DNA of 64,000 bases from Termitomyces sp. T153 (Eukaryota > Basidiomycota > Agaricomycetes > Agaricales > Lyophyllaceae). The position numbers and the translations under genes are program-made. The stretch covers positions 1 through 64,000 of the forward strand of contig JACKQL020000150.1 of the NCBI GenBank assembly GCA_018296165.2, written 5' to 3'. The notes under the pieces were generated by a model, which saw only the letters and a program-made list of their open reading frames with translations, had not been told where the DNA came from and searched no databases. This document shows, one piece after another, positions 13,910 through 48,766 of this stretch. Each line of letters opens with the position of its first letter. Positions within the stretch are counted from its first letter, which is position 1.

Positions 13910-15582
13910 ATGTCATCCTCTACTTACTCCCCATTGTCATCAGTACTATCTGCATTGCAATCAGCATCTCCTGCTTCCTCCTCCTTAGAGGAATCTGATC
14001 CTCACTGTGGTTGCATTGAGCACATGTACCATAGTTGTGAGTGCTAGTTTGTCCCTCTGTGTCCTGTCATGGTTGATTTAGGTCAACAGAGTTGTCTGCC
14101 ACAGTGGCTGGCTCCTCCAGGGCTTTGTCCCAAGGCACAGTTCTAGTGCTGCCTGTCTCAGTGTTGGCAGGGCATTTCTTGAGGCCCAACTTTGGCTCAG
14201 AGCAGGTTATGGTTATTCTGAAGGCATTGCAGATAGCCCAGGTGGACATGACCCCTGAGAGGTTTGTGGAGGCAGTGGAGTGAGCACAGGGTCCCCTCAC
14301 CCTAGAATGGTGTTAGACAGAGGCCCCAGTAAGCTTGTAGCATTGTTTGCAGAGTTCTGAGTTGATCTGACATCTTAGTGCACTCTCTGCACCTGCTGCA
14401 AGGAACATTGTGATTTTGAGGAGCTGATGCAGGGGTCCTGTCAGGACACTTCTGTTTGCATTCCTTGCCACACCAGGTATGAGAAGTGTCCAATGTTATT
14501 AAGTTGGCATGTGGCCTATATGGCAAAGCAGCAGGGGTGGGACATGGAATGGGTAGTGGAGCAGTTGCTTGAGGGGTGCAAGGGGAAGGTGTCAGGTTGG
14601 AGTTCTGGAGTGGAGGGCAGAGCAAGCATGGGGTGGCCTGTGATAAAGGTGGGGCCCTTGCAGGGTGGGTGGAGGGAGGGGGCTTTGTCAGTGTGGGATA
14701 AGGAGAAATAAAGGGCATCCCCCTCACTAGAGGCAGAGGCAAGCAAGTGGCCACAAGGGGGGGAGTCAATGGCAGGTCCTCCAAGGCCACACATGTACTC
14801 CCCTGTATCAGGAGTTCTGGTGGGGGGTTCCAGAGGAGACTCCTGTCTGCCTCTAGTGGTTCCCAAGACATTCAGGCAGTGACAAGCAGAGGTGTTGTCC
14901 CAACTACTAGCATTGCATGAGAAGGAGATTGGGGGGGTTGAAAGGGATTGTGATACAGTCCAGTGGGAGCATGACAAGGTAAGGAGGGACTGGGATGTAG
15001 TGCAGTGGGAGTTGGGGGAGGCCATGCACATAATCATAGAGAGTTCTTTGGAGGTGTGGGGGTTGCAGGAGCACCTAGAGCAGCTGGAGGTGGAGGCAGC
15101 ACAGTAGGTGGAGGCCTAGTAAGGAGCCACAGAGGCAAAGGGGGCCTGGGTGGAGGCAGGGAGGCAGTGTGAGGAGTGGCTAGCCAACAAGACAGCTTTG
15201 GAGTGCAGAGAAGTGATGTGTAAGTTCCTCCACTTCTTGCTCCTTTCACCCTGCTGACACTAAGCCATTTAGATTGGGTCTATCAACACTGCATCCTCCT
15301 CAATGGGGCATCAGCCACACACACCTCAATACAAGATGGATTGGCATGGATGCTTGGGAAGCTCCTGTTGGAGTTAGAGCAGGGGTTCTGGCAGATGGGG
15401 TGGTTGTTGGTGGAGCACCAGCAGAGGAGTGTAGCAGACTCTGAAGTGTAGTGGGAGATAGTGACCAATGTGGGAGAGCCATTGCCGGGGCAGCCAGAGG
15501 TCCTCACCATTGTGGTGGTGCAGATGGAGGTGGACCTGATTGGGGGTAGGGTGCAGAGGATTCCAGAGAAGGAGGAGGGGTG
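13910..15582 (+). pseudogene. Antisense zinc-cluster/coiled-coil gene of chromovirus A2
   Basis: The gene lies opposite to pol, between the chromodomain and the 3' LTR. ATG at 13910 starts MSSSTYSPLSS, followed by an acidic Ser/Glu stretch. A GTGAGT...TTTAG intron lies at about 14036-14080. The next exon has LKALQIAQVDMTPERFVEAV. A 50-bp phase-0 intron (14329-14378) ends directly before the first cysteine codon of CTLCTCCKEHC (CX2CX6C), followed by CIPCHTRYEKC (CX2CX6C), a Zn2Cys6-like cluster. Then come SWHVAYMAKQQGWDMEW, a Gly/Pro linker, a coiled coil (MLSQLLALHEKEIGG; repeated VQWEHDKV and VQWELGEA) and a conserved C-terminus (LLELEQG, QMEVDL) ending with TGA at 15580-15582. Copy A3 has the same protein on its minus strand. 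Stops TAG/TGA interrupt the frame. The role is unknown; DNA binding is inferred only from the cluster spacing. Confidence 0.75.
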
Positions 15583-15879
15583 AAGGGGGTGGAGCTCCAT
15601 TTTCTTGCTGTCTTGCATTTTCTCCTGTATGATTTTACATTTTATAGCCTTGTACATGACTATTTCTTGCTGTTCTGTTGATTGTGTGAGGTTTGAGATT
15701 GTATGGGGAGAGAGTAAGAGTAAGTGAAAACACATAGGGGATTACTTATAGGAGTTGAATCCCTGATAAGTCCAGAGGTGGGGGTTGCACCCACTGATGC
15801 CATCTGTATTTGCTAGTCCCAGGGGTCCTAGGGCTTAGTGGAGTGCCTTTGATGGAAGTTTCAGAGCCTGTTGGGGGCT
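15583..15879. other. Spacer between antisense gene and pol end
   Basis: No frame is convincing. The antisense gene and pol converge here, so this should hold both 3' ends; the ACTTATAGGAGTTGAATCCC block near 15747 resembles the corresponding spacer of copy A3 (about 46900). I cannot point to a specific polyadenylation signal. Confidence 0.4.
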
Positions 15880-16367
15880 TTATCAAGGTTTTTTTTGAGG
15901 TTTCCAAGTGTTGTCCTCAGGTCTGTAGTCCTTTCAGTGGACCAAGTATTGGAGTTGGCTGTGGACTATGCAGGAGTTGAGAATTTGGTTGACCTCATAG
16001 TAATATTTGTCCTCAACTTTGACAGGAGGTGGTCGACTGGGGCGCTGCTCAGGGAAAGGGTCCAGAGTGTGTTTTTCAAGAAGTTGCACATGGAACACTG
16101 GGTGGAGGCCCTTCAGGCCCAGAGGTAGGTCAAGCTTGTAGGCATGCATTGAGACCTTCCAGAGGACTTTGAAGGGGCCAAAACATTTGTAATTGAGCTT
16201 GATGGAGGGCCTCTAGGTCTTGAGATTTTGTTGATTGAGCCAGATCAAGGTGCTAGAGGGCTAGTCAAGGGTCAGTTTGCATTGGGCATCAGCATGCTTG
16301 GAGTAGGCTTGATTGGTGGTGTTGATCTCATTCCAGAGGAACTGGTGAAGGGATCAGAGGTCCTCGG
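15880..16367 (-). pseudogene. Integrase C-terminus and chromodomain of A2
   Basis: Minus-strand reading gives [20 protein letters not shown] then [12 protein letters not shown] and LQYLVH. This matches the tail of chromovirus integrases: the G-x-H-P-V-F-H-V module and the start of a chromodomain (Y-E-V-x-x-I-L...YLV.W.G). The aromatic core is partly lost by mutation. The reading breaks at 16367, where element B begins; the upstream integrase part lies at 26943 onward. Copy A3 gives the uninterrupted comparison at 46300-46871. Confidence 0.8.
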
Positions 16368-17412
16368 TGATGTGCTCCTATGCCGCCTAGTGCCATGCAG
16401 GAAACCTAAAAAGAGGACCTAACACCAGTCACTAGATAGGGTAGCTGGCAGTAGGAATTTAATAATTGAGGGCGAGTCAGTAACCATCCCAGAGAACTAG
16501 AGCAAAAGTTGTGATGTGGGGCGAAGTAGAAAGAAGGCACTATTGCCAGCTGAGGTTGTTGTAACGGTGGTGAGAAGAGTAGGGAAAGAGCAACGGTAAA
16601 GGAAGGACTGAAACTAGGGGACGAACATGAACCAGTCACTAGCATTGCTAAGTCAAATTAACGCAAATAGGCACCTGCAGTTGGTACCAAACTAAGTCAA
16701 AGTTGAAGTCGAGGAGGCTCATCACTAAGCCGGAGTTAAAGGCGAGATAAAGGAAATAGGCTTAGAGAGAGAGAGCAGCTAGTTGACTCTGAAGGGGGTT
16801 CTCTGTTCCGTTTTTCTCCCTCCCCCTAGTGTCTATGTACAGTCAGTATTTATACGTTTTGAAGTATAGTATGTGAAAGTAAACAAATAAGTACTACTAG
16901 CAACGGCATCTGTCACTGTGCTTATGGTGCATACAAGGCGTCAGTCTGTAACTAAGTGAAAAATCCTAGGCGAAGTCTTGGCAACACTTAATTGCTAATA
17001 AAAACCAAAACAAGAAACGAGTCCAATGTCAACACCTGAAGTGTAGACGCTGTTCAAGTATGTTGGTAAGCTCAACAAACAAAATGATAGTAAAAGGTAC
17101 GCATCTGATAATTTGTCCGTATATGGTAGGAGAACGCCGTTTTGTTGCCAGGATCGCTAGGGTCACTAATAATCGTTGCTAGGGGGTCTAGGCCTTGATG
17201 ATCTAGGCCCAAGCTCCAGACTCCACATGATATTTCTCGTGCTCAATAAGTCTTGTAGTTGCTAGGGTCTCATGCTTTGGTCCAACCCTTGGGCTCGGTC
17301 CCATGTGCTGAGTGTTGTGACTTGTGTCAAATACAAAGTAGTCAACTGCCGCTAAGTCCGCAATGCCAAAAGAATGCCGAAAATGGTGCTCAGCAATAAC
17401 TGGGGCTCATCA
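16368..17412 (-). repeat. 3' LTR of element B
   Basis: A complete 1045-bp LTR: TGATGTGCTCCTATG at the left and GGGGCTCATCA at the right. It is the reference for the family; the partner at the other end lacks the first 165 bp. Confidence 0.92.
16847..16854 (-). promoter_or_regulatory. TATA-like element in B LTR
   Basis: TATAAATA on the minus strand, about 20 bases upstream of the conserved TGTACATAGACAC block. The same arrangement is present in all B LTRs, for example TATAAATA at 42138-42145 on plus. It is the likely promoter of genomic RNA; the start site itself is not determined. Confidence 0.5.
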
Positions 17413-17427
17413 TCCTCCCCCATACTG
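17413..17427 (-). promoter_or_regulatory. Polypurine tract of element B
   Basis: The minus strand reads CAGTATGGGGGAGGA directly before the 3' LTR start TGATGAGCC. A purine run at this place is the plus-strand primer site of LTR retrotransposons. Confidence 0.65.
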
Positions 17428-17590
17428 AAATATTGACTGTCCTCAGTCAACCTTGAAGTCACATGCTCGATTGCCTGGTCCGTGCGCCAAAGAGATTCAA
17501 ATAAAAACTGGCTGGCAGTATTGCTTGAACTTCATCATCCCCACTTTCTTCTTATCTACTATTCTCCCCTACCATCTCGATCTTATTGCT

Positions 17591-19543
17591 ATGTCCGATC
17601 TGGCCTCTCAGTTCAAAAAAACTATGATGGCCCATGCTTTCCTGGAATGTGTTGACCAATTGCTTGCCGTGGCTCGTGCTTCCCTGGCAAAGGATCCTCG
17701 CTTGGCGGTCACCACTATCTTTCAGACGTGGCTGCAATGGTTCAAGACTGTGGGGAGTGGAGTTGAGTGGCCGGAGTTGGCAACTGTCGAGAAGGAGTGT
17801 TGCCAGTTATACGAGCAGTACAAGGGGGAGGAATGGGTTTGCCCATTTGACATTCATTTTATAAGTCTTTGCTTTTATTTTCTTAATGACATTTCTAACT
17901 CGATCACTAGGCGCCAGTTGATCCCTCCTTGGAATTCCTAATGGACAACCTTACTGCGGGAATGACGGTAAGTGCCCCAGCAGTCGCTAGCGCTAGTGAC
18001 ACCGCTAAGGTATGTCAGCTTTTTGAAGAATTGTCACCAAATGACCAGTTCTTCTTTCAGCACCCGGTAGGTGCATTAGCGGTGGCGAGGGGGGAGGGAT
18101 GGAGCAAGGGTCATGAGGATGATGAGGCGGCAAATTGTGGGGACATTCAGGAGGTGGGCCCCTTAACTCCCAAGGCTGGGGCTGGCGGCGTTGCTAGGGG
18201 GTTGGCAACATCGCCAAGAATGGCAACAACTCCGAGGAGCAAAGGGAAGGGGAAGGGAAAGGCATGGGAAGAAGAGGACAAGGATATTGAGGTGAGTCCC
18301 TTTTCTTCTTTTTCACTAACTCTTGACAACGCTCGCTAACTTTTTCTTGCAGGATCATATTGAAGAAACATTTACTGACAAGCACTTGGCGACACTCCTT
18401 TGTTGGTGAAAGGCCTTGACGGTGGTGGATGCTGGACTGGGAGCTGGGGTGAAGTTAGAGAAGGCCAAGGGGAAAGTAACAGTGTCGCTAGAGAAGCAAC
18501 AAGAGTATAAGCGCACGCAAGAAGCGGTAAGCACTTAGCAATTGTTTCTTTCTGTGTCACTAACAAATTCCTCTAGTGCGACAACTGTTGGGCCGATAAT
18601 GACCCAGAGGGCTGCTGGTACCCCACTGGGGTCCAGCCCTGTTATCGCTGCGACAGTACGAGGAAAAGCTGCTCACACAGCGGACGGTCGTCGAGGAGCA
18701 CTGGCGGCAAGTTCACTAAGAGGATAGCGACAAAGGCGGCGTTGGTAAGGAATGCAAGAGCTTTTGTGGAGCAGCAGAGGGAGTTGGCAAAGCGAGGGGA
18801 GCACATTGAGGTCAAGCATTTGAGCTTGCTCCTACCGACATTGCAGGAGGGAGCTGTGGTTGGAGGCAGTGGAGGCGCTAAGGTGAAGAGCAGAGAGGTG
18901 GTGGAGAGCGACGAGGACGACAACGACAGCAACAGCGACGTGCCCTTGGCACAAAAATGAGCAGCAAGTCCCGTGTTGGTCGCTGGCACTAAGTGACCTC
19001 AAATGGTCGCTAGCGAGGAGGGAGAGGGGGATGTGGAGATGAGGGAGACTACTCCCTTAGCGACGGTCGCTGAGGCGGAGCGGGAGGCAAGCGACATGGA
19101 GGAGAAGAGGGCTGAGGAAGCCAAAGTCCGGTGAAGGGTAAGTCCTTCTCTTTTGCTAGTTTCTTGATCGCTAACCATTTTGCTGGGGGACCTGGAGCGA
19201 CACGCCTTTGCGCCAGGTTGGCGATGATGAGCTGGAATGGCTGGGCAAGGACCTTGGTTGGCCGATGCTGCTAATGTCAGTAGCGTTGCTAGTGGATTTT
19301 GATGAGAGGGCAGCAGGAGTGGAACGGTGGTTCCAGAGGGAGCTGGAGGCAGCCAGGGAGGAGTTGTTAGCGGCTCGGGCTCATTACACTGTCACTAAGC
19401 AAACGTTGGCAACACTGGCGGGATATCGGTGCGACTGTCAGGCTTTCTTGGCCTGGCAAAAGGAGAACAATGTCGGAGAGGGAGGTTGGGAGGAGGCAGG
19501 GGCAATGGAGGTGCCTGACAATGACGCTGACCTCGACGCTTAG
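17591..19543 (+). pseudogene. Antisense zinc-cluster/coiled-coil gene of element B
   Basis: Five exons on the strand opposite to pol, all joined in phase 0: 17591-17836, 17911-18291, 18353-18526, 18577-19137 and 19217-19543. Introns are 74, 61, 50 and 79 bp, with GTNNGN donors and CGCTAAC-type branch sites in two of them. The reading gives about 562 residues. An N-terminal helical part (MSDLASQFKKTM, WLQWFKTV) is followed by a Ser/Gly/Lys linker. A Zn2Cys6-like cluster from residue about 268 reads CDNCWADNDPEGC then CYRCDSTRKSC, the exon opening on its first Cys. A basic tail, an acidic DEDDNDSNSD stretch and a C-terminal coiled coil (WFQRELEAAREELLAAR) follow. The only breaks are four TGA codons (18407, 18958, 18994, 19132), each explained by CGA to TGA at a CpG. 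Function unknown; nuclear DNA binding is inferred from the cluster. It shares exon structure at the cluster with the A-family antisense gene. Confidence 0.82.
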
Positions 19544-20024
19544 TGCCAGTCACCTCCTGTAATTTTTTTTTTTTTTTTTCTTTTTAGTTTTTATAGTACG
19601 GACATAGACTAGCCCCCTTAAAGGGCCCCAAAAAATGTATAGTATATTTTAGCGAAGACTCTGAAACCGATGGAACAGAAAAAAAAGAGAGCAAAATCAC
19701 TTGGGGATACTAGCGACTATTGTCTAACACTAGCGACGTCTGACGGCAAACGCTCAGTAAATCATCATGGCAAAGCACCTCTGGAGACGTGCCAGGCGCT
19801 AGCAACAGAAGGGCCAAGCACAGCATTGAAACAAGGAAGGAATGTCAAGTAATGGGTTGTATTTGTGATAGTTTCCTAGATAATAGAGGGGGTTGGCACA
19901 ATAAGAAACGAAGCAGAGTCAAAATAAGTTGCTAAAGCTTAGCGAAAAGGTAGTTTTCTTCTTCATTGGTGACGTCGCCAGTATTGTCATTGTTGACGAG
20001 TTCAGTCTGCTCCAGTTCTCTGAG
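19544..20024. other. Convergent spacer in element B
   Basis: This lies between the stop of the antisense gene (19543) and the end of pol (20025). It contains a run of T (about 19562-19580) soon after the antisense stop. No further gene is visible; a short plus-strand frame at 19670-19852 has no recognisable content. Confidence 0.5.
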
Positions 20025-21191
20025 TCAAGAGGTGTCGACATCAAAAGCGTCACTAGGCACTGTTATGTGTTCTCTAGCGAAATAGGGGACTAGGCAAAAG
20101 GCGGCAATGGGGCAATGTAATACGGAGCCATCTAATTCACAAACAATGTAAGCGCCTCCACAGTTGCGAGAGATTACCACTAGTGGGCCTAGGTAACGAG
20201 GTTTCATCTTCTTGTTATGCGTTACCTCAATTCTAGTATTCCTCATGAGTACAAGGTCACCTGTTTTGAAATTGTAATCACAGATCATAGCGGTGTGTTC
20301 TGTCTTGAAGCAAATGGCTGCTAAGCGATGAGCGCTAAGAACTTGGCTGTGAAGGCAATCTAGATTTTCTTGGCGACGCTAAAGGTCAATTGCTCAATGG
20401 GCTATGAGGTCAGTTGTCAACAACAGTGAGTTTGGCGGCAGTTGCAAATATGTCGCTTCTACTATGTCAGCAGGCAGGAGAGAGTGGGTACCAGTTGTCG
20501 CGAAATAAGGGGAGCAACCCATTCGCTTGCGCACTGTAACATGTTCTGACCAAAAGACCAAGTAAGTAGCAGTACTCCACCTAGACTGATCACCATCAAC
20601 CGCTTTGAAGAGGGCTTGGCAAACATTGAAATGAGGCCGCTCGACTATTCCATTAGCGTGCTTATTGTAACCAGAGATCTGGATGTGGTGCAAGTTATAC
20701 TTCTTTGCCAAGTAGGTAACTGCCTTTAGGATTGGTGGTCCATTGTCGGTAACTATTTTGCTAAGCACCCCCCATCAACAAATGACATCCTCATACAGCC
20801 ACTTAGCGATGGCTTTGGTGTTCTCTCTGGCAAGCATACAAAACTCGGGGTAATGAGTCAGCAAACAACGTCCTTGAATGATGTATTTGAACTTATTGGA
20901 GGGTGGCATGAACATAGTGTCAACATATATTTTGCTGAACAAGGGCGCTGGCATAGCGACAGTTGGCGGAATGAGAACCTTGGTCATCTGATGTATCTGG
21001 CAGGGATGGCACGTCCAAAGGTACCACACAATATCAGCGCTAACTTCAGGCCACCAAAATCGTTCTAGGAGGGCTGAGCGAGTAGCAAAAAGACCTCTAT
21101 GTCCCAAGTCATCATGCATAGCCTTCAGGACTTGTAAATGACTCGCGGTGGGAACAAACAGCTTGTGAGCGCCATCTCGCTTTCTCGCCAA
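20025..21191 (-). pseudogene. Integrase of element B
   Basis: Continues pol after a one-base shift near 21190. The N-terminal zinc-binding motif appears as H..LGHRGLFAT followed by CHPCQ. The catalytic core shows YVDTMF (first Asp), IVTDNG (second Asp) and the NGIVERPH block (Glu), the D,D-35-E triad, then a C-terminal part GDLVLMRNT with YLGPLVVI. A TGA-type break near 20770 interrupts the core (DVIC, then WGVLSKIV in another frame). The triad residues are present, so the shifts alone inactivate it. No chromodomain follows, unlike family A. Confidence 0.8.
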
Positions 21192-23749
21192 AGTTTGCCT
21201 CCCATGACGAAGAACATTGAGGCATAGTGAATGAAAGCGGCGTAATCTTTGTTGCTAAGACCTTTGGGTCTGACAAGATTGTGAAGCCATTTCTCTACTA
21301 AAAGTATGCAAGCATCACTGGTGATAGCTTTGGCACTGCAGGGTACGTCGCTATAAGTAGAGGTGCCATCATCTCGGAGAGGTAGTATATTGTTGCTGGT
21401 TGCTACTTGGGGGAGAGTGTGGGTGCCGCTAGCAAAACTCGCTAAAGGATGCAAATAATTGTACTTGACCAAGGGAGGTAGACAACGGGAGGCCGTGGAA
21501 ACTTGGCGAAGTAGCGGCAGCGGTGACTGGACTTGATGGACAAACCCATGTAAGCAATCAATCCAATCCTCGTAGACAGAGTTGTCACTATTGTCGACTG
21601 GAGGGTCGCCAGGCTGTGTCGGGCGTCGCAAGAGACCATCAGGACCATAGAAAGTTCCCTTAACATGAACCAGCTCAAAGTGAAACATCAAAATTGCCAT
21701 GATCCAGCGGTTCATGCTAGCGGAAGGCTGAATGTCGGGGTTCTGAAGCATATCCTTAATGTAGCGAGCATCAACTTCAGCAATAAGATTCCTGATGCCA
21801 ATAAGGTACATCCGTAAAGCTTGTAGCGCTCGATAAAGACCATAGAGTTCCAACTTGGGCTGGCTGAATTGGGCTTCTCTGTTGTTTAGCATGATCAACC
21901 CAAAGCGGTTGTAGCGGCGTTCCTTGCGATTATCACTAGTGCATTGACAGAGGTAATATCCAACCGCTATGTATGACGTATCCACCGCTAAGATAACAGG
22001 GTCAGGCAATTCATAATCGATAGGAACTAGGGGCTTAGCGTCTCGTAAAGCTTTCACGAGGTCCCGTTGAGCATTTATTTGATCGGGGCCAAACTCAAAA
22101 GGGATGCCAACGCAAGTAAGTTTTGTTAGGTTGTTGGCTCGATGGGCGAAGTTCTTGACAAACATCCTTAGTACTCCAATGGTACCTAGGAAGGCCCGAA
22201 CTTCCAATAGCGACTTGCAAGGGCCCCATTGCTTGATTAGCACTAGGCGACTTTCGTCAGGAATTTGACTGCTAGGCGTGCAGACATGGCCTAGAATCTT
22301 GAATGTAGGGGCGCAGAGCACAAGCTTGTGACCTGAGAAGGTTCCACCACAGTATTTCATTTGCTGGAGAATCCTGTTGAGAAGTTCAAAGAACTCCCAT
22401 AGCGCTAGGCAAATGTTTGAGTTAGCAGGATGTTTAGCGGGTTTACTGTTAACAATCTTCCAGTCCTTGGGTCCTTTAGCGCCAACGTTGTCAATAAAGC
22501 TGAGCACGTTATGGGGAATCTCTGGCTGCAAAATAAAGGTAATGTCATCGTGAAATATAGGCACAGAGTTGGTCCATCCCATCGGCAAGGTCACTAAGCG
22601 AAGGGCGCCAAACGGAGTCTGGAACGTTGTTAAGTCACGTGATGCTGGGTCAATAAGTCGCTCATCGTAGCCAACGTAGAGGTCAAGAGTGGCACCACAG
22701 ATGCATCCAGCGAAAGATTCTGCAATGTGATCTGGAAAAGGTGGTACTCCAGAATGGCAGATGGTGATGCGGTTTAGCGGCTCGAGACTGTGCACAATCC
22801 TGAGCTTACCATTTTTCTTGAGAACGCAAAACCATTGCGAGCAGTAAGTGGAGTTTGAAGGTTCATAGATGCCAGCGCTAATTTTGCCACGAATAATCTT
22901 GCATATTTCCTTTTCTAGCCCTGGAGGTATGGGGCGATTGTGCTGGACCCACAGTACATGTGGAATTGTCGGTATGCGTACTGGCGGGAAGAAGTCGGGG
23001 CGCAAGCTTCCCCATTTGGAATCTTCCCAAGCAAAAGCTTTTTCCTGTTTGGCGACCATGTTGACTAATACATTGATTTTGTCACTAGTGAGGAACCCTG
23101 TGTCATGGTCCTTAACCAGTTTCGCTCGTTGCTCGCTAGTGAATTGCTTTGTTGGGACAAAAGGTGGCGGATTCAGGTTAAGCAGAGGGAGTGTTGCTAG
23201 TGGATTGCCAATAATCTGGCGCTTGATTCGAAAGTCCTCGCTAACATGGCTGGTGACTGGTTTGGTCTTCATAGCGACGGGCTTGTACTTCTTCTTGACC
23301 TGGACTCCTTTTTGCTTAGGGGGTTTGTTAGTGACATATTGAGCAGGGAATGGAATGTTAACGTAGGTGGGGGTAGTGTCTGTAACATATGTATCAAGTG
23401 GTAAAGTCTGTCCAAGAATCAAGGGGTTAGAGGTATCAGTAGAAACAAGATAAGCACGAGATGGAAGGGACAAATTGGAAACGTCGCTAGCCATAGTGTA
23501 AAAGTATGCTAGTGTGGGATCAGTCTGTGGGTCAGAATTGGTAAGTAAAACATCTTTGTCCAAGTCACAAGAAGCTATACAAGTCGCTAGACCAGTTGAA
23601 TGGTCATAGCTGATAACGATCACTATGTTGCTATCTTCTTCAATGCCTTCGGCGATGAAAGCAACGGGGTGCCTCTGTTTCAAAGCGAACATTTTGGCAG
23701 TTGTTTTCTCTTGGATTTGCCACGTGGAAAGGTAGGGATAGTGCGCCAT
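21125..23749 (-). pseudogene. Reverse transcriptase-RNase H of element B
   Basis: A continuous 874-codon frame, the longest in the window. The first part carries the end of the protease/linker; RT begins near residue 240 (PHVLWVQHNRPIPPGLE). Motifs follow in order: CVLKKNGKLRIVHSLEPLN, DLYVGYDERLID, TFQTPFGALRLVTLPMGW, and the polymerase site read as FIDN instead of FIDD (near plus 22490), so the second metal-binding Asp is now Asn by a G-to-A change. RNase H follows with AVDTSY, KLELYGLYRAL and AEVDARY. The GYDER/MGWTNSVPIF signature is shared with element C, so B and C are related and distinct from chromovirus A. The first codon lacks ATG, consistent with a gag-pol polyprotein read-through or shift. 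Confidence 0.88.
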
Positions 23750-23851
23750 TGTCCAGTATTGGGGTCTGTGATTGTTATGGTGGTTTCAACGTTGCTAATT
23801 GTGTTGACCGTACTTCGAGTTAATACATCAAAGGGGCATCCAAGTAGAATG

Positions 23852-24346
23852 TCATAGGTGGGGGACCGTAAAACGTGAATGCGGAGGTAAAATTGTTATG
23901 CTGCCAATAGTGCAGGGTACGTTGCACACAAGTCCTAGCAATTGATCCATGGTACCATTAGCGCTCTGCATATTTAACACAATGTTAGGGTTGTAAGATA
24001 GCCCAATGTCGCTGGCGATTTCTGCAGACATTGAAATTATCTGAGAACCACTGTCGTGAATGCATTCCACTTCCTCTTTGTTGTCGATCAGCATCATGAT
24101 GGTATGAAGTGACTGAGAATTCTTAGCAACAGTGAGCACCACAGGCTCTTCTCCGTGGGGTAGCGAATTGATGTAAGCTTCAACAGGGTCAACAGAAGTG
24201 AATGGTGCCTTGTCAGAGGTAAGTCCATTAGCGGTATCGGTGTTGGATCCAAGCAAAAACTGGGGTTCTTCAATAGCAAACGTCGGCAAAATATCTTCAA
24301 AAATGTTGCTGGGGTCCTGTACCGTATTAGCGCTAGCGCCTACCAA
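23852..24346 (-). pseudogene. Aspartic protease of element B
   Basis: Minus frame with ECIHDSGSQIISMS, the catalytic D-S/T-G motif of a retropepsin, preceded by an acidic linker (LPHGEEPVVL). Element C has the same DSGSQ form (LDSGSQIVCM). The frame ends at 23852 and the family's ILLGCPFD-like loop continues in the neighbouring frame around 23845-23820 (ILLGCPFDV read across the shift). Confidence 0.75.
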
Positions 24347-25988: not shown

Positions 25989-25990
25989 CC

Positions 25991-26938: not shown

Positions 26939-26942
26939 CATA

Positions 26943-29776: not shown

Positions 29777-29799
29777 TAGACTTGCTTTGGGGCTGGAGA

Positions 29800-32650: not shown

Positions 32651-32682
32651 CAAGAACAGAGTAAGAGGAAGTCTTGATGTTA

Positions 32683-33549: not shown

Positions 33550-33554
33550 GTTAC

Positions 33555-38341: not shown

Positions 38342-38865
38342 AGAGACCATTGACCAAGCACATAGTGATGGTTTCTTATGGCCAGAGGAGATGAAGGCAG
38401 TACATCATCTAATGATGCTGCAGAATGAGGCTTTTGCATGGGATGATCCTCAAAGAGGTAGGCTCAAGGAGGAATTCTTCCCTCCTGTGGTAATATCAGT
38501 AATTCCTCACACTCCCTGGGTATTGAAGAACATTTCCATTGCTTCTGGACTCAGAAATAAAATATGCCAGTTGATAAAGCAGAAAATTGAGGCAGGAGTG
38601 TATGAGCCATCCAACTCTTCATACAGATCCCAGTGGTTCATAGAAGATTGAAAAGGGATAGTGAGAGTTGAGGATAGTTCACAGTTTTGAATCCTTAAAC
38701 AAAGTGACCATAGTGCATTCTAGGTTGCCACCAGCAACTGAAGAGTTAGCTAGTCACTTTGCTGGCAGAGCTTGTGGAGGGATCTTTGACCTGTATATGG
38801 GATATGATGAGAGAGTGTTGGATGTAAGGTCTAGGGACTATACCACCTTTCAGACTGTCACAACC

Positions 38866-39904
38866 TGCTCTCTGGACCCTGACATTGTTCCCACCCTGCT
38901 CATTTGTCTGGAGTTCCCCCTGATGCCCCTGAAACTCCTCCAGCCCTTGCCCATCCCCCATGCTCACATGGGGTAACTCTGACACTTCTCTGGCAAACCC
39001 CAATGGCCTCCTGACCAACTCTGATGCCTTCTCCACAGCCATTGACACTTCTCCTAAGCCTCTGGAACCCTCCCCCATTGTTCCTGGCCCACCCTATGCC
39101 TCTGACCCACAGCCCTAGTTCACCCAACCTGTTCTGAGGCATCACAACAACCCCAGAGCAGCCCACATCCCCAGCTGATTCCATCAGAATACCACTGTGG
39201 CCTGCCCCTTGATCATACCTGACACCTGTTGACTCCACACAGCTCCATCAAGCCCTGCCACCATATCTGCTGTCCTCCAGAGCTATCCAGTAGTCAGTAT
39301 ATAAGTTGTAGAGTAACTCCTCATACTCTAGTCTTGATATTACCTACATTAACTGGTTACTTGTGTCTTGTGTTTCTCTCCATCTCTGTTTTCATTTTTA
39401 ACCTCAAATCTATCTCTTTCTCTGTCTCATTTTGCCTCATTTCCATCTTGTCTCAATTGTCTCTGCTTCCTTTGTTTCTCTAGGTTCTTTCCATCTCTGA
39501 TGTCAGTACAAACTTCACACCCACACTACAAACTCCAAACATTCCTACAACAACTCCAGACCTTGCTCCTCACTCAGCCCCAGAACCCATCAAGTCTTAA
39601 TTGATCCTCCATCAAACTCTGGCTCTGCCTCCATCACTAGCAAAGCCTCTGCTTGCCCTGCAGTCCATTTGCACACCCACAAACTTGTTTCTGGCACCTT
39701 CTAAGCCCAATGTCTAATATACTTGATCTTTGACTTTCCTGGACCACTCCAGACTTGCTCAGGCCACTCCCCTTAGATTCCCCTTGCAAGTCCCTTCACC
39801 CTGCACCAACCCCAAAGCACTAGGTTATAAGTGCAGAACATTATATCTGCCTAGTAAGGACTCACCCAATGTAGCTGAGTCCCCATAGTCAGTGGAACCT
39901 GACA
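38866..39904 (+). repeat. 5' LTR of chromovirus A3
   Basis: 1039 bp, from TGTCACAACCTGCTC to GTGGAACCTGACA. A TATATAAG element at 39298-39305 precedes the conserved GTAGAGTAACTCC block. Confidence 0.9.
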
Positions 39905-39936
39905 TAATATCAAGACTCCCCCTTACTCTGTTCTTA

Positions 39937-41563
39937 ATGTCTGTGTATAACTCCATGTACAACCCTGCTGGCTACCTAACCAATGTCTATGGTTGGCTAG
40001 TCCCTGAAAATCTATATGCCCCATTTTACCCAGGCCCCCCTGCAAATTAGTATGTTCCCCACCACTAGACCCCTAACACCAACTAAATACCTCCAGGCTG
40101 GTGCTGCCCCCCAGCATTCCCCACCAATGGCAACAACTCCTACATGTACTCTGGAGGACACTCCACAGTGCCCCCCAACACTGCCTACCTTCCCCCTGCC
40201 CACTACTATGCATATCCAGCCCCTTTGGAGCACATAGATAATTATTCCCCCCCCTCATCTGCCATTTTCTGCTCAAGCTCCCCCTTTCCTCAGGCAGCAA
40301 AGGGTCAAAGCCTATGCCCAACAGCATGACAAAGTCCTCCATTTCCTCTGCCTCTCTCCTGCAGAGTTTACAAGATGTGCTCACACTCTCCTTATCAACC
40401 TAAGCTACCTTGACACCCCCACAACTCTGGAAGTTTGGGCAGATCAACTCCTTGACTTTCACAAATGCTACCTGCAAGGACATCTCTCAGAAACCATGCA
40501 AAGTACTCTAGGTATCAATGCTAATTTGTGGAACAAGCTGGCTTGGGAAGGAGAACTCAACATTCAAAAGCCTGAACCTTTCACTGGCTGCAACTCCTGG
40601 AAGTGGCGCATCTTCCTGACCCAGTGTCTAACTATGTTCCAAGCTAATCCCATCACTTTTCAGCTTGAGAGCTCATGAGTAGCCTTCACTGCATCCTATT
40701 TGCAGGGTATCACCTTCAACCATTACATGGCACTACTCTGATTTGATCTAAGCAACACTGTACTTTCCAACTGGCTCACTTTTACCCCGGAATTCTCTAG
40801 TAAGTTTGGCATCTTTGACACTGTAGCAGAGGTGGAGGAGAACCTCTTCAATCTCCAAATGTGTGACAACAAACATTTCATGACCTTTATTGTACAATTC
40901 AAATGGAAAGCCTACAAAACTGAGTGGAATTACAACACCCTTTGCTTTGCCCTCTGTCACACCCTGCCTCAATGGATCAAGAACATCCTCCATCTTGCAC
41001 TCAAGCAAACCACCTACAACAGATACAAGGCACTTGTTACCAGGTTGACCAATGTTACTAGGAAGATCAGAGCAAGAACATGGCATTCCAGACCTTGTGG
41101 AACACCCCCAGTAACACCAACTGGCAGGTTGGAGCAACTAACAGCACTCAACCCTCAATCCCTGTCAACCCCACCAACTCCATGTCCTGTCTCCCTCTAG
41201 GCCAAAGACCTCCCAGTGCCAATTGACCCTCAGAACAGCACCTCCCTTGCCCAACTTAATGCTGCTGACCTCCATGAGGCCCCAGAACTCTTGGACACCA
41301 ACTCTAACAACCTCAACAATTTTCTGGAGTCCACCAACAACCAGAAAACCCTATGCACAAACAAGATTTGGGATAGGCCATGGATTGATGTACCAGAGGA
41401 GATTCAGGAAAAACAACAGAAAGATGGTGCCTGCATCCTATGTGGTGAGCAGGGACACTTTATCCACAGTTGTCCTAAACAACAAGTAATGGAACATGCC
41501 ATGTGGATGATCAACAGAGAGGGCTGTGATTACCAATTTATGGAAAACAAGTCAGCAATTTAG
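39937..41563 (+). pseudogene. Gag of chromovirus A3
   Basis: ATG at 39937 begins MSVYNSMYNPAGYL, 32 bases after the LTR. A Pro/Tyr-rich region follows, then the capsid with PFTGCNSWKWRIFLTQCLTMF, FNHYMALL and MCDNKHFMTFIVQFKWKAY (Retrotrans_gag-like), a linker, and a CCHC knuckle CILCGEQGHFIHSC near 41440. Stops at about 40048, 40678 and 40741 and a shift before 41216 interrupt it. Confidence 0.82.
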
Positions 41564-41621
41564 GTCTTGAAGATGCACTAGACCATGGATCAGACCCTGA
41601 TATCTTCTCTGCTCTGGCCAC

Positions 41622-42568
41622 TGATGAGCCCCAGTTATTGCTGAGCACTATTTTTTGGCATTTTGGACTTAGTGGCAGCTGACTACCTTGAATCCGACAC
41701 AAGTCACAACACTCAGCACACAAGATTTTAGTGACTGCGAGACTTACCAATCACAAGAAACATCATGTGGAGTCTGGAACCTGGGCCTAAACCATTAAGG
41801 CCTAGACTCTCCCTAGCAACAATGATTAGTGGCCCTAGTGACCCTAGCAACAAAACGGCATTCCTGTACTATATATGGACAAATTATCAGACGTGTACCT
41901 TTTACTGTCATTTCTTTTGCCGAGCTTACCAACATACTTGAATGGCATCTATGCTTCAGATATTGACATCGGATTCATTACTTTTTGGTTTCATTTGCAA
42001 TTAGGTGCCACCAAGACTTTGCCTATGATTTTTTACTTAGTTACAGACTGACGCCTCATATGCACCCTAAACACAGTGACAGACACCATTGCTAGTGGTG
42101 CCTATTTGTTTACTTTCCCATACTATACTTTAAAATGTATAAATACTGACTGTATATAGACACTAAACAAGCAAGAACAATTGGAGAACTGCTATCTTTG
42201 AACTCACCAGCAAGAGATTTCACTTCACCTCTTTTGCTCTTTTTATCACTTTCGACCCAGGCTTAGCAATAAGTCTTCTTGACTTTGACCTCAACTTAGT
42301 GGGGTGCCAACTGCAGGCACCTATTTTAGTTAACCCGACTTAACAACACTAGCGACTATGGTTAGTGACCATTTTACTGACTTCTGCTAGTAATAGCGAC
42401 TCCTATAGACTTCACTCCACAACATAACTCCTGCTCTCATTCTCTGGGACAGTTACCGACTCACCCTCAACTATTAACTTCCTACTGCTAGCTACCCTAT
42501 CTAGTGACTAGTGTTAGGTCCTCTTTTTAAGTTTCCTGCATGGCACTAGGCAGCATAGGAGCACATCA
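41622..42568 (+). mobile_element. Solo LTR, family B, TSD CCAC
   Basis: TGATGAGCCCCAG...GGAGCACATCA, flanked by CCAC at 41618-41621 and 42569-42572. TATAAATA at 42138-42145 is its TATA-like element. At 947 bp it is about 100 bp shorter than the reference LTR. It splits the region between gag and the first protease of A3. Confidence 0.9.
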
Positions 42569-42572
42569 CCAC

Positions 42573-43500
42573 ACTTCTCCACACAATGGTACTTGCCCCA
42601 GACAACCTCCCAGCACACCTCTCCTCCCACTCCTCCACCACCCTCCTTCTCCACATCACCCTTCTCTTCTCCAACAACCCCATCCCCACATTAGTTGACA
42701 GCAGCACTATGGATAACTTCATTGACAGATTACTGGCAGCACTCACCACCTAACACCTCCAATGCCTCCCCACTCCAATTCTCCTGAAGCTCTTTGATGG
42801 TGACCCCACCCCCGCCAGAGACATCACACACTGCCTGGAAATGACCATGACATTTGCCAATGGACAATAGCAAGAACTCTGGTTACTCATCACAAAACTA
42901 CACCCCTCCACCCCCATCATCTCAGGCTTCTCCTGGCTCCACTCCACTAATCCCCACATTGACTAGTCCAGCCTCACCCTCTGCCTGGACTGGGACAACC
43001 CAACTGACTCCAGACTAGTACCATTTGATGTCTTACCCCCCTCCAAGAACCCCAAGACCATGATCAACCAATCCCAGACTCCCCTGCAGCTCTACTTGAG
43101 GTCTGCACATTTGTTTGTCATCAATGTCCAACTCAATGGCTCACCCAAAGTCCTCCCCACCCTCATTGACAGTGGCACCTCTGGCACCTTTGTCAGCAGT
43201 CAACTCAACCTCCAGCACAACAACCTCAACAAGCCCCTTAAGCTCTAACTCTTCAATGGAAGCTTTGCCACAACAGGGATCACTCAATACCATGACAACA
43301 CTCTCACCCTTGACAATGATCTGCAGTTTCAGGCCTAGTTTCTCATCACCCAACTCCCCTTATCAACTCTGATTGTGCTTGGACTTCCATGGCTGCAAGA
43401 CATCAACCCCAACATTGACTGAAAGAACCTCACCATGTGATTCCCCAGCTCCAAAGCAAGTCTAGCAGCTGCTATCCCCTTCTGCCTCCAGTCCACCTTG
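42573..43500 (+). pseudogene. Two tandem retropepsin-like domains of A3
   Basis: First domain: PTLVDSSTMDNFID (DSG now DSS) with distal loop IISGFSWLHSTNPHID at about 42910-42965. Second domain: PTLIDSGTSGTFVSSQ at 43150-43200 with LIVLGLPWLQDINPNID at about 43365-43420. Both have the full start-and-loop pattern of Ty3/Gypsy proteases. Copy A2 shows the same pair, so the duplication predates both insertions. The second domain keeps its catalytic DSG here. Confidence 0.75.
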
Positions 43501-43611
43501 AACTCCAATGTTTCTGACCACAGCACCAGCACCTCCAGAGCAACCCAAAGCTTCTCCACTCCCCATAGCAACCCAGAAGTTGAAGAGAATGCACCCCCAC
43601 CTTAGTCACCC

Positions 43612-45300
43612 TTGATCAAATCTCGATGGCTGCCCCCCAACATACTCTGGAACCAATACAAAGGCCCACAGTACCCCAACCAACCATGCTTGACCCTTCC
43701 AGACAACTCTGCCACCACTCCAGGCTCACCCACTGCTACCCCATTGCCCACCTCCACTGACTCCAGAAACCTTGATATCAAAATAATTGGTGCCATCCTC
43801 TTTGCATGCATCTTACAAGACAGCACTCCTGCCTTCCAGTTACAGATCATGCCAGCCTTACCTGAGAAGCACCTCCATGCAGAAACTACTCTGCCAGAGT
43901 GCAAAATGGAGGAACAGATCCTATATGAAGTAGTGCCCCCAGAGTATTATGAATTTGCTGATGTTTTCTCTGAAGAGAGTGCCAAAGAACTTCCCCTACA
44001 CCACCCCTATGACTATAAGATCAACCTCAAAGAAGGTGCCTCGGCCCTGTTTGGCAAGATCTACAACATGTCCAAGATCAAGCTCTAGGCCCTAAAGGAG
44101 TACCTTGATGACATGCTTGGCAAGGGCTTCATATGCCCATTGATCTCTGCTGCCAGTGCTCTAGTCTTGTTTGCCAAGAAGAATGGATCACTCCAATTCT
44201 GTGTAGATTATTGGGGACTCAATAAAGTCACCAAAAAGAACTGGTATCTCCTCCCCCTGATTGAAGACCTTGTTGACCATCTCCACAGTGCTAAGATCTA
44301 TACAAAGATAGATCTCCATTCTGGCTACAACAACATCCAAATTGCCCTGGAACATGAATGGAAGACTGCCTTTCACACCTGCTATGGCCTCTTTGAGTAC
44401 CTTGTAATGCCCTTCAGAATGACTAACTCCCCCACCACCTTCCAGTACTTCATGAACAATAACTTCCACAACATGAACAATGTCTTCATTATTGTGTACC
44501 TGGATGACATCTTGATCTACTCAAATTTGCCAGAGGAGCACCTGGAGCATGTTTGCCACATCCTAGAACAACTCTAGGAGTACTACCTCCATGCCAAACC
44601 CAAGAAATGCTCCTTCCACATGATGGAGGTCAAATATCTTGGAGTCATTGTTACTCCCAATGGCATGTGCATGGACCCCACCAAGGTCAAAGCTATACTC
44701 AATTGGCCCCTGTCATGGAACATTGAAGAGGTACAGTTGTTCCTGGGTTTTGCTAACTTCTACTGCTGATTCATCAACAACTACTCTAGAATCACCAAAC
44801 TCCTCAACTGACTTACATGAAAGGACACCCCTTGGAACTGGAACAGCAAATGCCAGAGTGTATCCTTCCTCCTCAAAAAGGCCTTCACCTCCACCCCAGT
44901 CCTCTGCCATTTTGACCCCTCCCTACTGATCATGCTTAAATGTGATGCCTCTGATTACACCATTGCTGGAATACTCTCCTAGTCAGACTCCAGAGGCAAG
45001 GACCTCTGCCCCATTGCCTTCTACACCCATTCAATGATCCTTATGGAGCTCAACTACAACATCTATGACAAAGAACTCCTCATGATTGTCAAAGCCTTTT
45101 GCCAGTGGTGGGCCTACCTCAAGGGATCTCCACACTGCATTCAAGTCTACTCCAACCACAACAACCTATAATACTTTATGACTATAAAACAACTCAGTTG
45201 CCACCAAGCTCAATAGTCCAAAACCCTCTCAGAGTATGACTTTACTATCCACTATTGCCCTGGACAGCTTGGCACAAAGCCCAATGCCCTCACTTGGAGG
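43612..45300 (+). pseudogene. Reverse transcriptase-RNase H of A3
   Basis: FADVFSEESAKELPLHHPYD and GKGFICPL, then LQFCVDYWGLNKVT, YTKIDLHSGYNNI, GLFEYLVMPFRMTNSP and the intact polymerase motif VYLDDILIYS (YLDD at 44497-44508). A stop follows EQL at 44577; the thumb (FLGFANFYC) and RNase H (KCDASDYTIAGIL, then MELNYNIYDKELLMIVKAF) continue in shifted or stopped frames to about 45300. It is better preserved than A2 but still broken. Confidence 0.87.
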
Positions 45301-45357
45301 TCCAACATATATTCAAAGAAGTCATTCAACGCCAAGTGGAACACATTCAACCATTGA

Positions 45358-46871
45358 GTGGTAATCCCCCCTGAACATCTGCATGCCATGCTGATTTTAA
45401 ATGAAGAAGGAATCCTCCATCAAATCAGAAACTCACCCCTGGACTCCTTCTTCATCCAGCACAATCTCCACAACAACTCCATGAACAAGTCAAATGCCAA
45501 AAACTCCTTCATGCTGTCTCCAGACCACTGCCTCCTGCTCCAGAGTGGACAAATCTATACTCCAGACCACAAATCCATTTGCCTCAATATACTCCAGCAA
45601 CACCACAACCACAAACTCTGTGGACACCTAGAAATTTGTAAGACCCTTTAGCTCATCTCCCAAACTTACTTTTGGTCAGGAATGAAGAAGGACATTACAC
45701 AATATGTAAGGGCCTGCGAACCCTGTCTCCAAGCTAAGGTACCCTGCCAGTGCCCCCATGGACTACTGAAACCCCTCTCTATTGGCTAGTGCCCCTGGTC
45801 CTTGATATCAATGGATCACATTGTTGAACTCCCTAACTCTGAAGGTTTCAATGCAATCCTTATTATTGTCTGCCACCTCACCAAACAAGCCCTCTTCATC
45901 CCCTGCCACACCACCAACAATGCTCTGGAGTTTGCCAAACTATTCCTCAAACATGTATTCTCCAAGGACAGACTCTCAGTTGATATTATCTCTGACCATG
46001 GACCTTTGTTTGTATCCCATTTTTGGCAATCACTATGCAAAGCACTTGAAATAAAGACAACCTCTCCACTGCCTATCACCCAGAGACCAACAGACAGACA
46101 GAACAAGTAAACCAGACATTGGAACAGTATCTCCACCTTTATGTTAACTATTTACAGAATAGCTGGCACACAGAACTCCCCCTTGCTAAGTTTACCTACA
46201 ACAATACACTTCACTCCACCACTGGAGTTTCCCCCTTCTATGCTAATAAGGGCTACAACCCTTGACTCATGCTATCCCTCAAAGACATCCCTTCTCACAT
46301 TACCCATAAAGTTGCTGAGGACCTCCAATTCCTTCACCAGTTCCTCCAGGATGAGATCAACACTGCCAATCAAGCCTACTCCAAGCATGCCAATGCACAA
46401 TGCAGACCAACCCCCAACTGGTCCCCTGGCACTTTGATCTGGCTTGATTGACAAAATCTCAAGACCTGGAGGCCCTCCATCAAGCTTAATCACAAATGTT
46501 TTGGCCCTTTCAAAGTCCTCTGGAAGGTCTCCATACACACTTACAAGCTTGACCTACTCCTAGGCCTGAAGGGTCTCCTCCCCATATTCCATGTATGACT
46601 CCTTGAAAAACATGCTCTGGACCCCTTCCCTAGGCAATGCTCCAGCCAACTGCCCTCCATCAAAGTCAAGGACAAATACCACTATGAGGTTGACCAAATC
46701 CTTGGTTCCCATGTGGTCCATGGCCAACCCCAGTACTTGGTCTGCTGGAAGAGCTATGGATCTGAGGACAACACTTGGAAACCTCAAAGACACCTTGACA
46801 GAGCCCCCAACAAACTCCAGGACTTTTATCAACAGCATCTCACCAAGCCCTGGGACTCCTGGGACTAGCAA
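45358..46871 (+). pseudogene. Integrase and chromodomain of A3
   Basis: Begins PPEHLHAMLILNEEG, with an H..H zinc-binding relic (LQQHHNHKLCGHLE), then VRACEPCLQAKVPC, SMDHIVELPNSEGF (Asp), DIISDHGPLFVSHF (Asp) and TDRQNK where the third acidic residue is lost or shifted. A C-terminal GLKGLLPIFHV module follows, and a chromodomain at about 46670-46860: YHYEVDQILGSHVVH, PQYLVCWKSYGSEDNTW, then KLQDFYQQH. The chromodomain aromatic cage positions (Y, W, W) are visible. Chromodomains target integration to chromatin marks in chromoviruses. Confidence 0.87.
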
Positions 46872-47096
46872 ACACAGATGGCATCAGTGGGTATAGCCCC
46901 TGTCTCTGGATTCATCAGGAATTCAACTCTCATGAGTAACTCCTATGTCTTTTCACTTACACCTCTCCCTCACACAATCTGAAATCTTCTCATGCTCAGC
47001 AGGAATGCAAAAGAACAAAATGAATAGACTACAAATACAATTATAGAACAGAAGGGAGCATAGGGCAGCAAGAAATCAAAAGTCCAAAGGCCTCCT
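46872..47096. other. Convergent spacer in A3
   Basis: This lies between the pol end and the stop of the antisense gene. It corresponds to 15583-15879 in A2 and contains AATAGACTACAAATACAATT, AT-rich sequence that could hold 3' processing signals. No gene. Confidence 0.45.
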
Positions 47097-48766
47097 TCAC
47101 TCTCTCTCCTCCTCTAGGATCCTCCACACCACACCCCTGACTAAATCCACCTCCATCTGGGCAACCATGACAGCAAGAACCTCCAGCTGCCTAGGCAATG
47201 GCTTCTCTACATTAGTTGCTACCTCCCACCACACTCCAGGGTCCACTGCACTCCTCTGCTGATGTCCCACCAGCAACTGCCCCATTTGATGAGACCCCTG
47301 CTCCAACTCTGGTAGGAGCTCCCCAGGCATCTGTGCCAATCCATCCTACATCAAGGCAAAAGCAGCCAATGCCCCATCGAGGAGGACATGGTGCTGTTGG
47401 ACCCAGTCTAGATGGCTTTGGGTCAGCAAGATTGTAGGAGCAAAGGGCAGAAAGACACATGCATTATCCCCCTCTGCCCCAAAGCCACTTTGTTGGCCAG
47501 CCATTCCTTTTGCCACCTTCTCACCTCCACCCTGGCCCTCTCTGCCTCTGCAGCTTCTCACCCTGCCTCTGCTCTCTGCTCTGCCCACACTTCTGATTGC
47601 ACCAGCCATTCCCACAGGCCCTGCATCTCCAGTGACTCCTCCACAATCATCTGTATAGCCCCTTCCAGCTCTCCTCATGCCAGATCCTGACCTCTCTGCA
47701 CCTTGTTACACTCCTGCTGAATCTCATTGTGGTTCTCTGTGATTCTCTGGACCTCTTCCTCACACAATGCCAATAGTTGAGACAGCACCTCTGCTTGACA
47801 CTGCCAAAATGTCTCAGAAATAATGAGAGAGGAAATGGGGCCCCTGCCAGATCCCTCCATCAAGGCCCTCAATGCAGGGGAGTAAATATGTGGCCCTGGA
47901 GGACCCACCATTGATCCCTCCCCTCATAGCTGCTTGCTGGGCCCCACTTCCAGAGAGGGGGATGCCCTCCGCTTCCTCTTGTCACAAGTCATGGGGGCCC
48001 CCTCCCTCTGCCTGCCCCACAGGAGTCCCACCTTCATCAAGCACTCCATGCTGCTTCCATGCTCCACTCCAGACCTCCAACCCAACACTCTCCCCTTGCA
48101 TCTCTTGAGTATCTGCATGGCCACCCACTTCACATCTCATCCCTGCTCCTCCAACATGCACACCACTCACCAACTCAACAAAATAGGGCACTTCTAATGC
48201 CTCAAACAACAAGGGATGCATACTAAAGTGTCCCACCAGGACCCTGGCACTGGCTCCTTAAAACTGCAGTGATCCCTATGATGAGCACAAAGGGTGCACT
48301 GTAAAGTCAGGTCAGATCAAAGCTTGGCAAAAAAGACACTGGATGCTCACCAGAGCCTCTGCCTGACACCACTCCAGAGTTGAGGGACCCTGTGCCCACC
48401 CCACTGCCTCTGCAAACTGCTCTGGGGTCACCTCTACCCGAGGAACCCGCAACACCTTGGGGACAACCTGTATCTCCCCTAGATCAAAATTAGGCTTTGA
48501 GGACCATCCTGCCAAACTGAAACTGACCCTGCTGGAACTCTGCCTGAGAATGGGACCCCTGACAGGCCAGCCACAGCTGCAGATAATTCTGTTAGTGTAA
48601 ATCAGTGACTTTGGAGTATAGAAGAAATGGACTCACACTCACAAGTACAGTACATTGCTGCAACCTGTTCACAACTATAGGAGGACTCAGACTCCTCTGA
48701 GGACAAAGGGTTGGGCAAGGCCAAGGACAACACTGATGGTGTGGGAGAATAGGCAGAGGATGACAC
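47097..48766 (-). pseudogene. Antisense zinc-cluster/coiled-coil gene of chromovirus A3
   Basis: Minus strand, opposite to pol. The start corresponds to MSSS of A2 but the ATG is GTG here (plus 48764-48766), followed by SSAYSPTPSVLS. The next exon has LRVPRVEVTPEQFAEAVGWA and STLEWCQAEAL. A 52-bp phase-0 intron (48299-48350) ends directly before CTLCAHHRDHC (CX2CX6C), then CIPC...KC with a stop in place of one spacer residue. The coiled coil follows (LSQLLALCEEEVQRITENHN) and the conserved C-terminus (LLPELEQGSHQMGQLLV, QMEVDLVRG) ends at 47097. The same domains in the same order occur in A2. Protein-level conservation between two separate insertions supports a real element-borne gene. Confidence 0.76.

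Follow-up and report, generated by a model that had tools for sequence, protein, structure and literature searches.

The window analyzed here is a 64,000-nucleotide stretch of contig C150 in the 72.4 Mb genome (G000) of Termitomyces sp. T153, a mushroom that termites farm. It contains long terminal repeat (LTR) retrotransposons of two Gypsy families, which we call A and B. Three element portions or copies (A2, A3 and B) each carry a spliced gene that lies opposite to pol and before the 3' LTR (Table 1). The initial annotation of the window had proposed this arrangement, and the coordinates that it gave were borne out. It had also placed a phase-0 intron of 50-52 nt directly before the first TGC of a cysteine cluster in all three, and we found that each of these introns starts with GT and ends with AG. 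In the encoded A and B proteins, a predicted long coiled coil comes after a cluster of six cysteines.

The exon borders of A2 were modelled on an intact copy of A on contig C29, and exon 3 of A2 holds both the cluster and the coiled coil. As read from the intact copy, the A gene has three introns, which goes beyond the single intron noted before. The start codon of A2, ATG, is replaced by GTG in A3, whose frame also changes within exon 2. Sequence blocks that had been described as common to these genes are present in A2 and A3 and are not shared by A and B, so they show only that A2 and A3 are copies of one family. The B gene probably has five introns, with the acceptor of the last exon uncertain. 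Homologues of B skip 18010-18060 and imply a donor at 17861, where the window reads AT; the acceptor that they imply for the last exon, at 19183-19185, reads CTG. Both splice sites were apparently lost by point change in the window copy.

Two Gypsy lineages regularly carry an antisense gene

Exon matches in the genome numbered at least 187 for A and at least 172 for B. Among 50 loci fetched by the gene alone, 45 were flanked upstream by the LTR of the family and downstream by its pol tail, which lies on the opposite strand (20 of 20 for A and 25 of 30 for B). The intron acceptor adjoined the first cysteine of the cluster (Cys1) in all stop-free clusters listed, 13 in A (of 20 loci; the 15 A rows include two that duplicate a copy) and 24 in B (from 23 of the 30 loci and one further stretch, L064). 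A spliced antisense gene with a six-cysteine cluster is thus a standing component of two Gypsy lineages.

The copy of A on contig C29 has long open frames between LTRs at 274781-275833 and 284667-285671. It encodes a gag of 889 amino acids and a pol of 1160 amino acids with protease, reverse transcriptase (RT), RNase H and integrase, followed by the antisense gene, read as four exons. Its pol matched the Pfam families RVT_1 (1e-40), RT_RNaseH (4.7e-35) and rve (1.4e-8). The chromodomain is broken off in this copy; by motif search it was recognized in A3 and at 15 of 20 A loci, and one A stretch from another copy matched Pfam Chromo (1.8e-18). With a Gypsy-type RT, RNase H and integrase, and a chromodomain at the integrase end, element A is a chromovirus (Ty3/Gypsy). 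Families A and B are very different in pol, as had been proposed, with 25% identity over 431 amino acids.

Protein searches with A sequences and with the B protein returned at least 53 (best E 6.9e-129) and at least 62 proteins (best E 1.1e-260), all labelled Termitomyces among the matches listed, and a third search returned 94 proteins, all with this label; coverage of other Agaricomycetes in these searches is unverified, and absence outside Termitomyces cannot be read from them. Matches of this number and strength make the gene more than a chance arrangement. A search of viral contigs, made with A alone, gave 111 pattern matches and no relative. Searching PDB by sequence gave three weak non-cluster matches for A and none for B.

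The gene frame is open and constrained in A and B

Constraint was measured by comparing neighbouring copies, in five disjoint pairs in A and 12 in B. The gene frame was open over the tested stretch in 13 of 16 A copies and 8 of 24 B copies, and the other five frames were open in none; because the loci were those that best matched intact proteins, conserved copies are favoured and dead ones under-represented. The non-synonymous share of changes was 0.511 in A, with 0.683 expected (z -4.9), and 0.561 in B, with 0.669 expected (z -5.2). The mirror frame, which shares third positions with the gene frame, also scored low (z -4.7 in A and -3.9 in B). It was open in no copy, and its replacements were worse than position-matched chance (z -3.6 in A and -4.7 in B). 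In addition, many of the A matches listed had a cluster exon free of stops. Judged from these sequence comparisons, the antisense gene shows the pattern of purifying selection in both families.

Alternatively, the antisense transcript could itself be the functional product, as double-stranded RNA or through antisense control of pol, with the reading frame incidental. The gene and pol are convergent, and antisense RNA control is discussed for plant elements in the available part of one report (PMC7264820). However, openness and constraint are specific to the gene frame in A and B, and the splice sites are conserved. We consider this explanation improbable.

A related family keeps the gene without pol

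Among the A matches there was a divergent subfamily, A' (P0149, 51% identical to P0066 in the cluster region). We found at least 241 exon matches for A' in the genome, some of which may be A copies. Of 20 A' stretches, 19 have the intron before Cys1, and the remaining one was unmatched.

Four A' elements, on contigs C64, C8, C6 and C17, were read from the gene to the 5' LTR, and all four keep the antisense gene without pol. The C64 element has a full LTR pair (93% identical). Just 65 nt of the second LTR are in view for C8, and the second LTR of C6 and C17 is outside the stretch read. The interior between the gene and the 5' LTR, roughly 3.4-4 kb, retains only residues 16-92 of gag or less, and it has no pol match except a piece of 21-31 residues adjoining the end of the antisense gene (four of four copies). 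More pol matches in the C64 and C17 stretches fall beyond the LTR. About 3.4 kb of the A' interior is without an assigned match. Over the interior, C6 and C17 are 87-89% and C64 is 85-86% identical to C8.

Just beyond the A' LTR on C64 (L076, 3006-3674) there is a pol that is only 46% identical to A pol and belongs to a further chromovirus-like family. In C8, a 1 kb piece between the LTR and the gene repeats, in inverted orientation, the sequence that flanks the 5' LTR on its outer side; because of the inversion, we rejected this match as an LTR pair.

Because A' lost the polymerase yet keeps the gene, these elements suggest that the antisense gene has a job of its own. An autonomous partner with an A'-type gene may exist. 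A bolder idea, which we hold to be rather unlikely, is that a selfish regulatory module, with a cluster exon starting at the first cysteine, moved between deeply separated Gypsy lineages and outlived the polymerase. A' would then have spread as LTRs plus a zinc-cluster regulator, the sole complete protein gene recognized there.

A putative DNA-binding regulator

Zn2Cys6 clusters have the pattern C-X2-C-X6-C-X5-12-C-X2-C-X6-8-C, bind two zinc ions and contact DNA at CGG-type half-sites. Compared with this range, the spacings of A (X2, X6, X15, X2, X6) are unusual only in the long loop. Those of B are X2, X8, X8, X2, X6, and the B cluster is more unusual than the A cluster. With its Zn2Cys6 half-spacings, the A-type cluster is plausibly a derivative of a host zinc-cluster gene. 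AlphaFold models have a helix at residues 273-344 in A (block means 85-97 over 281-340) and at 485-546 in B (block means 83-92 over 491-550). Pfam searches detected no further transcription-factor domain in A or B.

All 20 A loci have the motif CAATATTGATCA 132-134 nt upstream of the ATG, one with a mismatch. It is part of an 18-nt palindrome in 19 of the 20, and not in the window copies. The core itself is kept in both window A copies (with one mismatch in A3) and in two of three A' stretches.

We consider it fairly probable that these elements encode an accessory gene, running against gag-pol by the 3' LTR, spliced and convergent with pol, whose product is a putative DNA-binding regulator. 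The gene would be transcribed from between the 3' LTR and its ATG, with the transcript start falling near the conserved AATATTGATCA core. The protein would be a nuclear, probably dimeric, zinc-cluster regulator in which the predicted coiled coil would mediate dimerization and the cluster would bind DNA. It may act on the element's own LTR or on the antisense promoter, where it would damp or time sense transcription, or counter silencing. Retention of the gene without pol argues for a role in the element's own transcription or chromatin, and not in reverse transcription.

Both window A genes are broken by several in-frame stops, and these copies are dead. The ratio of observed to expected CpG was 0.02 over 7000-16000 and 0.05 over 39000-49900, both A stretches, and 0.63 in B; the near-total loss of CpG in the A stretches would explain the stops. 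Several observations weigh against the interpretation as a regulator. The loci used for the constraint measurements favour conserved copies, as described above. Replacement types in the gene frame were at position-matched chance (z -0.6 in A and +0.2 in B), so the constraint signal lies in codon positions only, and stop-codon changes in B were as frequent as predicted (18, with 16.5 by chance). Among the A' copies, which were mostly picked for few stops, frame constraint was not clear (z -1.7), stop changes exceeded expectation (27 vs 16.6), and one minus-strand frame was open as often as the gene frame (15 of 19 each over 330 nt). The cluster was modelled with low confidence in A and with a predicted local distance difference test (pLDDT) score below 40 in B. 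Whole proteins of the A and B families did not reach the cut-off of 21 bits for Zn2Cys6 (PF00172, Zn_clus). In A, 10 of 13 members matched Zn_clus at E up to 1, with a best E of 0.0052 (about 17 bits, estimated) and 11.1 bits for the first member; in B, Zn_clus was not among the seven families matched by 17 members.

One genomic A copy exceeds the Zn_clus cut-off (22.1 bits), by way of C4-C6 and cysteines after the cluster. Three genomic PF00172 matches (C6:739455, C56:319758 and C28:138940) are decayed A antisense genes. Because PF00172 matches at decayed A genes use cysteines after the cluster, automatic Zn_clus labels there are misleading. DUF3716 was considered as a link for B and rejected (2 of 17 members, best E 0.12, and one weak genomic place).

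The dead window copies, and an A' family lacking clear constraint, are also compatible with the gene being a passenger, a fragment of a host gene without function. Against a passenger stand the constraint in A and B, the large number of listed A matches whose cluster exon has no stop, and the retention of the gene in elements that lost pol, and we regard this possibility as very unlikely.

Relationship between the A and B genes

It had been proposed that the gene module is homologous across the two lineages. Intron position and placement speak for this proposal, and sequence does not. Mean local alignment scores were 32.1 between A and B clusters, 35.4 between A and host clusters and 33.6 between B and host clusters, using up to eight of 16 A and eight of 15 B non-redundant segments and six of 10 host Zn_clus peptides. 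The expectation that the A and B clusters are more alike than random Zn2Cys6 proteins therefore did not hold. A control of host against host clusters contained pairs of a peptide with itself and was set aside. Among shuffles with cysteines fixed, 13 of 200 reached the A-B cluster score. Profile comparison by hhalign gave P values of 0.26 for A-B, 7e-4 for A-host and 0.013 for B-host, with host matches spanning only 20-23 columns, shallow profiles (effective sequence number, Neff, about 1.7) and a host set of six peptides. The A-host match (20 columns) is out of register: the beginning of the A cluster is aligned to the latter half of the host one. Because of the shallow profiles, the six host peptides and the register, we take these values to mean that nothing sets A-B similarity apart; we do not take them as evidence for a descent of A from host Zn_clus. 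Whole profiles of A and B gave an E value of 0.13, and no shared block was detectable between the two antisense proteins except the cluster.

We read 30 of the 38 genomic PF00172 matches. Three (L117, L119 and L120) were decayed A copies and were dropped, leaving 27 host stretches, and in five of these (L102, L105, L107, L114 and L118) Cys1 is out of view. There was no AG directly before Cys1 in any of the 22 host Zn_clus stretches with Cys1 in view, and the intron position is thus not a common one in these unrelated host genes. In nine of the 22 an intron splits the cluster itself, and in others one seemingly lies a few codons upstream (introns were judged by eye). The chance that a random B intron would fall on the Cys1 junction is about 0.003, before allowing for after-the-fact selection.

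The shared intron position and placement favour a common exon. Its source could be a host zinc-cluster gene, or at least the cluster exon of one, taken up a single time and then transferred between A and B, or taken up on two occasions from the same host family. Such a homologous module would account for an intron of the same placement and phase in A, A' and B, for a junction absent from the 22 host stretches and seldom hit by a random intron, and for the same position and strand within the element. It is at odds with the lack of A-B signal beyond the cysteines in the alignment, hhalign and whole-profile comparisons, and with the different cluster spacings (X6/X15 in A and X8/X8 in B); the intron coincidence was also chosen after the fact. 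We give it slightly less than an even chance. The other explanation is that two unrelated cluster genes were captured independently, with the shared intron coincidental or reflecting a general exon-border habit of such clusters. This agrees with the sequence and profile tests, in which A and B are not close, and with the frequent occurrence of introns in host Zn_clus genes, either in the cluster or only a few codons away. However, the exact junction and phase are common to all three families and occur in none of the 22 judgeable host stretches, and we place independent capture just short of even as well. The chance that the A and B genes come from one capture is about even, and the evidence favours neither a single capture with exchange nor capture in parallel.

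Organization of the window

Self-comparison of the window showed that the first A element, on the minus strand, is split by a nested B element. The initial annotation had treated its two parts, A1 and A2, as separate copies. They are one element because 15894-16365 and 26932-30621 run consecutively in the coordinates of A3, the second A copy (38856-50030), and the A2 antisense gene belongs to the 3' portion of the interrupted element. The LTR pieces of B are 83% and 91% identical, and its flanks, TCGG and TTGG, are read as a 4-bp target duplication carrying one change.

Table 1. Features of the window and location of the A' elements.
Feature	Position	Strand	Remarks
3' LTR, first A element	12641-13700	-	pieces pair with 32679-33555 at 84-86%
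Conserved core CAATATTGATCA	13776-13787	+	134 nt upstream of A2 antisense ATG
A antisense gene, copy A2, pseudogene	13910-15583	+	exons 13910-14036, 14090-14328, 14379-15219, 15273-15583
A2 phase-0 intron, 50 nt	14329-14378	+	up to first Cys codon; same place in stop-free A copies
A2 six-Cys cluster	14379-14489	+	C-X2-C-X6-C-X15-C-X2-C-X6-C
A pol 3' end, ahead of nested B	15894-16367	-	matches A3 46788-46317
Element B, nested in A	16368-26928	-	LTRs about 16368-17413 and 25991-26928
B antisense gene	17591-19543	+	exons 17591-17860, 17911-18009, 18061-18291, 18353-18526, 18577-19137, 19217-19543
B phase-0 intron, 50 nt	18527-18576	+	up to first Cys codon
B cluster	18577-18672	+	C-X2-C-X8-C-X8-C-X2-C-X6-C
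First A element, remainder (pol, gag)	26932-32471	-	self-comparison
5' LTR, first A element	32679-33555	-	self-comparison
A3 5' LTR	38856-39904	+	85% to 48981-50030
A3 pol chromodomain region, approximate	46600-46800	+	motif search; same stretch of intact copy matches Pfam Chromo (1.8e-18)
A3 antisense gene, pseudogene	47097-48766	-	homologues found by protein search
A3 phase-0 intron, 52 nt	48299-48350	-	
A3 3' LTR	48981-50030	+	self-comparison
A' elements	G000 C64 about 139837-146614; C8 about 549900-557360; C6, C17		stretches L073, L076-L078, L099, L100

A further element, C, has LTRs at 33660-34548 and 54561-55446 (92% identical) and encloses A3. The LTRs of A3 are just 85% identical, though A3 must be younger than the enclosing element; faster CpG decay of the A LTRs would explain why they are less alike than those of C. 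No cluster was seen in the three minus-strand frames of 52600-54600 in element C. There are also two B-like LTR pieces, at 41622-42561 (inside A3) and 61982-62939, that are 84% identical.

Contigs C10, C112 and C289 (for A) and C9 and C89 (for B) begin a few bases inside the outer end of an LTR. Telomere targeting, which contig ends had suggested, was rejected on this basis; these starts are probably assembly breaks at repeat borders.

Comparison with known systems

By analogy, the layout of the antisense gene is best read as comparable to the TRP28 open reading frames (ORFs) of plant Retand elements, to brtn of Botrytis and to retroviral HBZ. HBZ is a spliced antisense basic leucine zipper (bZIP) regulator made from the 3' LTR side of human T-cell leukemia virus type 1 (HTLV-1). 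The likeness is one of layout; HBZ has a bZIP and not a zinc cluster, and homology is not implied. brtn was reportedly described in Boty by Zhao et al. in 2011. The available part of one report presents it as an additional antisense gene in Boty-like Gypsy elements of Botrytis cinerea (PMC8365987). Like the Termitomyces elements, these are, by their description, fungal Gypsy elements with an extra antisense gene.

According to the available parts of two reports, Retand elements of plants and related elements commonly have antisense ORFs at this position, and TRP28 is a likely DNA binder (PMC11963269, PMC7264820); one of them also mentions HTLV-1 HBZ (PMC11963269). The Termitomyces gene resembles the Retand ORFs, as these sources describe them, in position and strand, in the proposed DNA-binding regulator and in the presence of non-autonomous elements in the lineage (PMC11963269, PMC7264820). 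It has an aORF-3R-type layout in its placement (45 of 50 loci), its open frame (13 of 16 copies in A, 8 of 24 in B) and its presence in a whole element (C29). Unlike Retand, the host is a fungus, there is a cysteine cluster with a coiled coil instead of TRP28, and two very different lineages carry the gene, one of them with a chromodomain. The Termitomyces gene also has multiple introns, whereas the word intron is absent from the main text, as available, of the Retand report (PMC11963269). Neither TRP28 nor another known aORF domain was among the Pfam matches listed for A and B members, although no TRP28 profile was run.

Literature searches gave no recognizable antisense gene in Termitomyces or other basidiomycete elements among the papers listed, and the words antisense and zinc are absent from the main text, as available, of a survey of fungal LTR elements (PMC3248453). 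Compared with fungal Zn2Cys6 factors (PF00172), A has the C-X2-C-X6-C half-spacing twice, and its profile fits host Zn_clus better than it fits B (a short match, out of register). In contrast to those factors, A has a 15-residue loop and B has X8/X8 spacing, and whole-protein scores are under the cut-off where bits are given.

Plant elements are known to carry antisense genes ahead of the 3' LTR, and one is reported from Botrytis; the function of these genes is not established. The Termitomyces candidate combines a recognizable cysteine cluster, conserved splice sites, constraint in two families and many copies in one genome. What is new here is A', an LTR element family without pol in four of four copies read that keeps the antisense gene. 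With pol missing and the gene retained, A' amounts to a natural deletion test. Should the gene prove to be common to A and B, it would exemplify the exchange of an accessory regulator among lineages of retrotransposons.

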